The translations under genes and the position numbers were made by a program. From the NCBI RefSeq assembly GCF_004799665.1, contig NZ_CP031310.1, forward strand, positions 3,154,887 through 3,218,886: 64,000 nucleotides of DNA. The letters are read 5' to 3'. Below the pieces are notes generated by a model. It searched no databases and was not told the origin of the DNA. It saw nothing but the letters and a program-made list of their open reading frames with translations. The first letter of the stretch is position 1; each line of letters starts with the position of its first letter. Shown piece by piece: positions 13,524-16,878 of the stretch. The stretch comes from Halapricum salinum (GTDB taxonomy: Archaea; Halobacteriota; Halobacteria; Halobacteriales; Haloarculaceae).

Positions 13524-15797
13524 TCAGTCGTCAGCCACCTCCTTGGCGTCGGGGGCGTTGATCCCAACGGTCGATTCGAGGTGCTCCAGGCGGGCTTCGA
13601 GTTCCTCGTTGCGCTCGTGGAGTTGTCGGTTTTTCTCACGGAGCAATTCGGTCTGTTCTTCGAGTTCGTCGATGCGGTCGTCTTTCTCGTGGAGTCGCTC
13701 GGAGAGACCCTGAACCGCGGCAAGCGCGACGCCATCGGCGTCGACGTGACCGATCGTCTCGGGGTCGTCCCCGAGCCCGAACGTGTCGTGGAACTCGCCG
13801 GCCATCGGACCCATCCGGTCGACATCCGGGTTGGCGTCGTATGCCCATCGACTGATTGAGAGTGATTCCACTCCCGACAGCACCTCGTCGGGATCGATGG
13901 GTCTGACGTCGTGCTTGGCGCTGGCCGCCGACACCGTTTGCCAGGTGCTGTCGCCTGATGAGAGGTACGCGCCTGCGTTGGGATCGTCGTTGGTGTCGAG
14001 TCCCGTCACGAACCGGATTCCTCCTGTCGCTCGCACGTGGAACGTGTTATTCCCCGTGGGACTCGACCCCGTCCCGGACTGGTTCGATTCGAAATCCGCG
14101 TCCGTCCGGTCGGCCCAGACGAACGCGCCCGCGTTACGGGCTTTCGCTCGCTGGCCCGCAGCGAAGCCGTGATCGGCCTGTACCCGATTTTCTCGACCCC
14201 CTGGGATGGTCCCGTAACTACCGTCGACCTGGTTACTTTCACCGCCACCCACCGTTGCCGCGCGTGCGGTCGCGTCGTTCGAGTTACCCCCGGCAACGGT
14301 GTGGTACCGGTCACTATTGATGCCACCCGTCGACCCGCCCGCGGTGTTGGAGAAGCCGCCGCCGATAGTCGCATGTCGCCCGCTCGCAGTATTTTAGCCG
14401 CCGCCGCCCACGGTCGCTTCCTGGTCGCTGGCGGTATTACTCAAACCCCCACTCACGGTGGCGTACGTCGCGTACACGTCCGAGTCGCTGACTCCGGCCT
14501 GGTTGTCCCCGCCGCCGCCGACAGTCCCGTAGTCGTCGTACACCACGTTCTGGGTGCTGTCCTGATCCGGATCCTGCGGCGCGCCACCCGCGATGGTCCC
14601 GTAGTCGCCGGTGACCAGGTTGTTGTTTCCACCGGCGATAGTCGCGTACCGCGCGTCAGCGATGTTCAGTGACCCACCGCCGACTGTCGACCCGTTCGTC
14701 CTCGATTCGTTGTTCTCGCCGCCGCTGACCACGGTAGTGCTGTCGAGGGCCTTGTTGAATTTACCGCCGCAGACAGTCGATCTCACACCAGTTGCGTCGT
14801 TCTCCCCGCCGCCGCCGACGGTCGCGTTGATGGCCGTCGCTGTGTTGCTCGTTCCACCGGAGATGGTCGCGTTGTCCGCATTGGCAGTGTTATGATCGCC
14901 GCCGCCGACCGTGGCGTACTCCGCGTTCACAGCGCCGTCCTGGTCACCCGCCTGATTGCCATCTCCGCCACCGATGGTTCCGTAGTCGTCGTAGACGACG
15001 TTCCGAGGCGGGGAGAACGTATCCAAATCGGCTCCTTTCCCGCCGCCACCGATGGTGGCTGCTTTGCCCTTTGCTTCGTTGCCGTAGCCCCCACCGACAG
15101 TCGCCTCATCGCCGGTGGCGGCGTTGTTCAGACCACCGCCGATGGTCGTTCTCTGGGCAGTCGCTTCGTTTCTGGAACCGCCGCCGACGGTGGCGAGATC
15201 TGCGTTGGCGGTGTTCGAAAACCCCCCACCGACGACCGCGGTGCCGCCGCTGGCTTCGTTCGTACGTCCCCCGCCGACTGTCGCTCTCTTCCCGGCTCTA
15301 TTGGCCAGCCCACCGCCGATAGTGCCGTAATCACCCGTTACAGCGTTGATGCTATCACGCAGGCCGTCACTATTGGAGGAACCGCCGCCGCCGATCGCCG
15401 CTCCGACGGTGCCGTTCTGGACGCCGTTGTCCTCGTAGCCCGCGATGACGTTCCCGCCGCCGGTGTCGCCGAACTCGTCAGTGTCCGTCGGACCCAACTG
15501 CAGGGTGGGCGCCCCGTCGATCCTCAGGGTGTGGCCGCTGGTCGATTCGATCGCTCCCTGGACCCTGGCGTCGTCGGGCGTCGCCAGACCGTACCCGCTG
15601 GCATTGTTGGGTACCGCTCCCTGGACACCGATCGGCGTGCCGTTATCGGCGTCGTTCTGGCCCAATACGCCGACACCGTCGTCAGCGTCGAGTTGGCCGA
15701 GTATCTTGAACGTCGACGTCACGGCAGTACTTTGCAGATCGATACTCTCGTTGCTCGAAATGTCGTCCGGTGGGTCGCCGTTTGCGTTGTTGGACAT
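13524..15797 (-). pseudogene. Giant glycine-repeat (YadA-head-like) protein with S74-type chaperone domain and coiled coil, broken by one in-frame stop
   Basis: A single reading frame runs from ATG 15797 to 13524 (about 757 codons) apart from a TAA at 14394-14396. The first part (about 1-130) is acidic with GVLGQND/GVQGAV-like units. Then come about 23 repeats of the type A-T-V/I-G-G-G-x-x-N-x-A, as in the left-handed beta-roll head of YadA-type trimeric proteins. These continue in the same frame for six more units after the stop. A spacer with TFHVRATGGIRFVTG leads into an ASAKHDVRPIDPDEVL...SRWAYDANP segment, resembling the S74 intramolecular chaperone of tail-spike and endosialidase proteins, and a heptad coiled coil near the C-terminus. 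No signal peptide is visible. The upstream fragment (13 codons short of 480) and the downstream fragment might still be made separately. Confidence 0.75.
14394..14396 (-). other. In-frame TAA interrupting the repeat protein
   Basis: The codon follows a GGC run (V-G-G-G-G) and precedes AAT ACT GCG AGC GGG (N-T-A-S-G). The repeat pattern continues without phase change, so this is a substitution or premature stop, not a frameshift. A lysine, glutamine or glutamate codon would restore the repeat. Confidence 0.85.
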
Positions 15798-15820: not shown

Positions 15821-15830
15821 CATATACTAT
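15821..15830 (-). promoter_or_regulatory. TATA box of the repeat-protein gene
   Basis: The coding-strand sequence atagtatatg lies 24-33 bases before ATG 15797. This spacing supports ATG 15797 as the start rather than the GTG at 15821, which lies within the box. Confidence 0.55.
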
Positions 15831-16252: not shown

Positions 16253-16516
16253 ATGGCTTCCGAAACACGGACAGTCGGGGAGCGCGGTCAGGTAACGATT
16301 CCGAAGGAGCTACGCGAACGGCTGGGGATCATGGGGGGAGACGAGGTCGTTGTTCGAGAGGAAGACGGACGAGTGATAATCGAACAGATGACGGTTCGTG
16401 AGCGACTCGCGGAAGGGTATCGAGCGCGGGCCGGGCGCGATAGTCAACTCGAACGAGAAATGGCGGACGTCTCAGCAGAAGCCGACGACGATCTCGGCGA
16501 CGCCCCGGAGTGGTGA
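16253..16516 (+). CDS. AbrB/MazE-like antitoxin (SpoVT-AbrB domain)
   Basis: DNA-binding antitoxin of 87 aa. The swapped-hairpin AbrB domain fills residues 6-45: GERGQVTIPKELRERLGI, then GDEVVVREEDGRVIIEQ. The acidic, probably disordered C-terminus (about 55-87) should wrap the toxin. It ends with a four-base overlap on the toxin gene (GTGA), a typical translational coupling. AbrB-type antitoxins repress their own operon, and the tandem repeat in the promoter would be the site. Family clear; the partner is the adjacent MazF/PemK gene. Confidence 0.87.
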   Translation: MASETRTVGERGQVTIPKELRERLGIMGGDEVVVREEDGRVIIEQMTVRERLAEGYRARAGRDSQLEREMADVSAEADDDLGDAPEW

Positions 16517-16878
16517 TCGTCGTGCGAGTCCGTCGCGGTGATGCCGTCGTCGTCGACCTGGATCCGACGAAGGGGTCTGAACAGCGGGGAACCCGGCCCT
16601 GCCTGGTCGTCCAGAACGACGTCGGAAACGAGAACGCTCCGACGACGATCGTCGTCCCGTTCACCACGTCTTTTGGCGACGAACTGTACCCGTTCGAGGT
16701 GCTCCTCCGGGGCGAGGAAGGGCCACTGAACGAGGATTCGGTCGCGCTCTGTAGTCAGGTCCGGACCGTGTCGATAGATGACCGGATCCGGAAGAATCTC
16801 GGGTCGATTCCCGACCATCGCATGGACGAGGTCGATCAGGCGTTACGGTACAGCTTCGGCCTGGTGCGTCCGACCTGA
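16513..16878 (+). CDS. MazF/PemK-type endoribonuclease toxin
   Basis: Toxin of about 121 aa that in this family cleaves mRNA at short sequences. The SH3-like PemK fold is marked by RRGDAVVVDLDPTKGSEQRG near the start, TRPCLVVQND, TIVVPFTTS and VALCSQVRTVSIDDRI, including the conserved N-terminal arginine/glycine-aspartate and the late threonine/serine-valine strand. Start is taken at GTG 16513 because it overlaps the antitoxin stop by four bases; GTG at 16510 or 16522 is also possible. The gene ends 52 bases before rfcL. Both partners look intact, so the module is probably active. Confidence 0.87.
   Translation: MIVVRVRRGDAVVVDLDPTKGSEQRGTRPCLVVQNDVGNENAPTTIVVPFTTSFGDELYPFEVLLRGEEGPLNEDSVALCSQVRTVSIDDRIRKNLGSIPDHRMDEVDQALRYSFGLVRPT

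Follow-up and report, generated by a model that had tools for sequence, protein, structure and literature searches.

In Halapricum salinum, a gene for an adhesin-like repeat fibre is interrupted by a single in-frame TAA, and it is probable (roughly 0.77) that this gene is a young nonsense pseudogene, or a null allele at the level of the lineage or strain, within a haloarchaeal family of fibre genes that exists in multiple copies. According to this explanation, the interrupting base would be genuine, the change that created it recent and the function of this copy lost. An intact copy would start with a short N-terminal domain specific to the family, continue as a long trimeric beta-roll of the UspA1 type, and finish with an S74 intramolecular chaperone and, at the C-terminus, a coiled coil.

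Frame analysis placed the gene on the minus strand of the window (the whole 64,000-nucleotide stretch of DNA that was analysed). The frame starts with an ATG at 15797 (a GTG at 15821 is likewise in frame), and exactly one internal stop lies between this ATG and the natural terminal TAA at 13526-13524. The original prediction, which had described a single TAA at 14394-14396 in an otherwise open frame, is therefore borne out, with the strand now added. Its proposal that changing the TAA to a sense codon would yield a 757-aa protein agrees with the codon count (467 + 289 codons, or 757 with the TAA counted as sense). The features of the gene are listed below.

14394..15797, minus strand: upstream open frame from the ATG to the in-frame TAA (467 aa), containing the N-terminal domain and most of the repeats, without chaperone or coiled coil
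15483..15797, minus strand: N-terminal domain, approximately residues 1-105, with the motif FKILGQLDADDGVGVLGQND...PIGVQGAVPN (boundary approximate)
14397..15482, minus strand: 15-residue ATV/I-GGG-x-x-N repeats before the stop, assigned by repeat spacing and profile match to the UspA1 head
14394..14396, minus strand: in-frame TAA, in place of X2 in the repeat motif GGG-X1-X2-N
13524..14393, minus strand: open frame past the stop (289 codons), with the natural terminal TAA at its end
14025..14393, minus strand: leftover beta-roll repeat turns after the stop (downstream residues 1-123; predicted structure)
14250..14252, minus strand: GTG, the first in-frame ATG/GTG/TTG after the stop, a valine codon of a repeat
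13692..14024, minus strand: S74-type intramolecular chaperone region (downstream residues 124-234)
13929-13931, minus strand: Ser155 of the S74-type region
13914-13916, minus strand: Lys160 of the S74-type region
13566..13748, minus strand: long C-terminal helix or coiled coil (downstream residues 216-276; predicted structure)

The repeat (ATV/I-GGG-X1-X2-N-x-A) has a period of 15 residues, and its phase is unchanged across the TAA: the flanking units are GGGG*N at residue 463 and GGGFSN at residue 478. The repeats thus continue in phase on either side, and the C-terminal chaperone and coiled coil stay in frame with them, both as had been claimed. Frameshifting around the TAA was ruled out because the frame is the same before and after the stop. 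The TAA falls at X2, the most variable position of the repeat unit, which across this gene and four paralogs is occupied by Ser (10), Gly (9), Asn (8), Arg (7), Asp (6) and 11 other residues; since these residues are so highly mixed, almost any sense codon should be tolerated there. Directly upstream of the 5′ end of the gene, on the opposite strand, the window carries a MazE-like antitoxin and PemK/MazF-like toxin pair (16253-16878).

Profile comparison matched the repeats to the UspA1 head both before the stop (3pr7, E 1.6e-57) and downstream of it (E 1.8e-39). An AlphaFold model of the part after the stop (pLDDT 89.5) shows the turns of a beta-roll followed by a mixed domain and then a long helix, and its beta-roll matched UspA1 and other YadA-like heads with structural Z scores of 12-16 (15.8 to 3ntn). 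The model of the N-part was poor (pLDDT 64.3) and a fold search with it returned no usable match; the fold claim for this part consequently rests on the sequence profile. The window protein is like the head of UspA1, a trimeric autotransporter adhesin of Moraxella catarrhalis (3pr7, 3ntn), in its repeat sequence and in its predicted left-handed beta-roll. The N-terminal domain is not that of UspA1, and the protein closes with an S74 chaperone and coiled coil; Pfam detected no YadA-type or type V secretion beta-barrel anchor at the C-terminus, where the S74-like domain and helix are found instead. Although the repeat part resembles a UspA1/YadA-like head, the protein is not a trimeric autotransporter.

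The mixed domain matched the intramolecular chaperones 3gud, 7dc3, 3gw6 and 4uw8 with Z scores of 5.5-6.3, values too low to be relied on by themselves. The window copy scored 17.2 bits against Pfam Peptidase_S74 (PF13884), under the curated cut-off of 22, whereas a paralog 50% identical to it scored 38.1 bits. Ser155 is present in 96 of 98 aligned relatives and Lys160 in 97 of 98, and the window copy keeps both, with a spacing equal to that of Ser1264 and Lys1269 in T5 pb1 (PMC4690869). The C-terminal chaperone of pb1 is auto-proteolysed once the trimer has folded correctly (PMC4690869); taking pb1 as a model, the upstream fragment alone should not mature. The earlier suggestion of a trimerising and folding role for the C-terminus towards the repeat part is in line with these fold and sequence matches. 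The window protein has this domain towards the C-terminus of a fibrous protein, as do the proteins with the chaperones of endosialidase, the T5 L-shaped tail fibre and MYRF (PF13884; 3gw6, 3gud, 4uw8, 7dc3), and like them it combines a Ser with a Lys five residues away and, in the model, a long helix at the C-terminal end; the resemblance in predicted fold is modest. It differs from those systems in scoring below the Pfam threshold, in having no phage context and in the stop between the chaperone and most of the repeats. The same layout of repeats and S74 domain is seen in genes annotated "tail fiber domain-containing protein" on haloarchaeal and bacterial chromosomes and plasmids (it was found in haloarchaea, Chloroflexi, Planctomycetota, Verrucomicrobiota and others). 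The genes of this type that we examined are open from end to end bar a few broken exceptions, whereas the window copy is stopped in frame.

The pattern expected of a nonsense pseudogene, intact relatives beside an interrupted window copy, is the one observed. The genome of H. salinum (one contig, 3.45 Mb, 99.98% complete) holds four full-length paralogs of 625 to 878 codons, each a single frame without a stop; an intact paralog lies in the region 1219237-1221219. A genome-wide scan returned 78 loci from many phyla; within the family, 37 of 146 genomes matched the C-terminal part, and nearly all full-length matches were single open frames. Among more than 100 distinct S74-bearing frames surveyed, only that of the window is preceded, beyond the stop that bounds it, by further repeats in frame, with 16 repeat motifs in the 300 codons above the stop compared with 0 or 1 in the others. 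The original prediction had stated that related strains keeping a TAA at this codon would count against it; the TAA was found in none of the more than 100 relatives or the four own-genome paralogs. The downstream frame is not a chance one, since its entire length aligns with relatives at 40-50% identity.

The fibre gene had no match in five other species of the genus, no ortholog exceeding ~50% identity among the genomes sampled from the family and the order, and no close relative in viral contigs or phage records; a first scan of genome contigs with the N-part likewise gave no match. An empty site could not be read in genus mates because the flanking synteny is not kept within the genus. Gene conversion was rejected as the origin of the stop: the paralog loci searched in the same genome gave at most a 64% match to the 105 bases surrounding it.

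The part downstream of the stop carries no second stop or frameshift. GC3 is 0.773 before the stop and 0.744 after it, with paralogs at 0.78-0.79. Of 51 strongly conserved alignment columns, the downstream part retains 46, a count that is below the median and within the spread of relatives (15 of 98 sequences keep fewer). Such limited decay points to a recent event, although taken alone it would fit an error or continued use equally well; judged from sequence, recency rests on this lack of decay rather than on a dated comparison.

A six-frame codon-score scan of 518 kb of the H. salinum genome searched for stops that have coding signal both before and after them and lack a start in the following 25 codons. 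(A version of the scan with a naive background was dropped because it gave too many hits.) Four candidate stops were returned, and the three besides that of the fibre gene apparently separate ordinary neighbouring genes, such as PspA followed by Usp, so that no second gene interrupted in the same way was found in the 518 kb. One of the three involves an AbrB-PhoU type gene that follows another PhoU gene (L177 2276-3286; genome ~1,072,276-1,073,286); this gene lacks an in-frame ATG/GTG/TTG for 44 codons even though its N-terminal domain begins at once, and it apparently has an unusual start or a small frameshift.

The original prediction had left a choice between a recent loss, a sequencing error and two products from one transcript. 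Recent loss fits best, given that the stop is absent from relatives and paralogs, that there is no clear decay downstream and that other members of the family are broken too. Next in rank, and improbable by our estimate, is that the TAA stems from an error in base calling or assembly (a base-calling error being the main rival) or from a mutation acquired in the culture that was sequenced, with the wild gene remaining an intact frame of 757 codons. The intact surroundings and uninterrupted paralogs would suit such an error, as would the sequence next to the stop (GGC GGC GGC GGC TAA AAT) in a repeat gene of a kind that short reads handle poorly. However, the genome is a single, 99.98% complete contig, and no other gene so interrupted was seen in the 518 kb scanned. 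Moreover, long-read sequencing errors are usually indels, whereas here the frame is kept.

A functional gene, making two products or relying on readthrough, is unlikely when both forms are considered jointly. Two separate proteins, a 467-aa repeat protein and a chaperone part made by reinitiation or from an internal promoter, are poorly supported and very unlikely. The confident model suggests that the downstream part could fold alone, and haloarchaea use termination-reinitiation, demonstrated for overlapping stop/start pairs (PMC6728339); however, no start codon overlaps the TAA, the first in-frame ATG/GTG/TTG lies at +144 (141 bases past the stop) and is the repeat valine codon at 14250-14252, no GGAGG-like or SD-like motif is found near this GTG, and none of the relatives surveyed has the split layout. 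Less likely again is readthrough, in which the TAA would sometimes be decoded to give short and full-length products from one mRNA. The good preservation of the downstream part would be expected under such decoding, as would a TAA placed where the repeat tolerates almost any residue. A recoded gene would be expected to share its stop with relatives, with conserved codons on both sides, but this stop is common to no relative, and the 518 kb contained no comparable gene. No suppressor tRNA for TAA, TAG or TGA was found either: the tRNA genes recovered (42 Infernal matches, with ARAGORN run on those loci and on the window, a search that may miss intron-bearing tRNAs) include none with the anticodon TTA, CTA or TCA. 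Furthermore, a review of archaeal recoding reports stop readthrough for Sec and Pyl only and does not mention UAA (PMC8211752); going by that review, readthrough of this TAA would, if true, be the first in archaea outside Sec and Pyl. A particular version, in which low-frequency readthrough would leave most repeat chains unfinished but supply a small number of full-length chains that carry the chaperone and would seed trimers, is the least likely of all.

Other members of the family are disrupted as well. One genome has a frameshifted copy (G057) and another a remnant (G144). In a further genome (G224), the repeats of another haloarchaeal family member are split between a GGFS and an NTASG unit by an IS200/605 element (L194 1925-5304), which has both a TnpA-like and a TnpB-like frame and is apparently complete. 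H. salinum itself has a truncated paralog reduced to the N-terminal domain (187 aa) and followed by a gene for TnpB (OrfB_IS605, with a Cas12f-like TNB domain), the two together occupying 2,220,507-2,222,453 (L055 8507-9070 and 9194-10453); for this paralog, a genome search did not find its S74 remainder.

The N-terminal domain of the window copy (approximately residues 1-105) and the repeats are common to the paralogs of its own genome (L055, L056), and their C-terminal domains differ: the end may be a canonical S74 domain, a divergent S74 domain like that of the window copy, or an unrelated domain with a coiled coil. Such variation suggests that the folding end has been swapped among paralogs. 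Similar proteins with repeats and an S74 domain occur elsewhere in haloarchaea (L057, L066, L071); some start with twin-arginine-type signals, for example SRRGFLQGLGVVGLGAYATG, and others with a PNHxYNVPxxGxxxWHxPLNxNF domain. Neither is present in the window copy.

For the window copy, we propose that a single base change in a variable repeat codon produced the TAA. Translation would then end at residue 467, giving a product without the chaperone and trimerisation region that would probably not mature, and the 289 codons downstream would probably go untranslated. Several intact copies remain in the genome, which makes the loss of one plausible. As a broken gene this is an ordinary case and not a new way of reading genes. 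Annotators should be wary of it: gene calling would assign the S74 part beyond the stop to a gene of its own, starting at a false GTG at 14252, and would take the N-part for a complete protein. The main value of the finding lies in the side view that it offers of a haloarchaeal family, little described in the literature searched, in which UspA1-type heads are joined to phage-type self-folding ends and of which haloarchaea have several copies. The repeated disruption of this family, by IS200/605 elements, frameshifts and a stop, makes it an accessible case of turnover among surface-type fibre genes.
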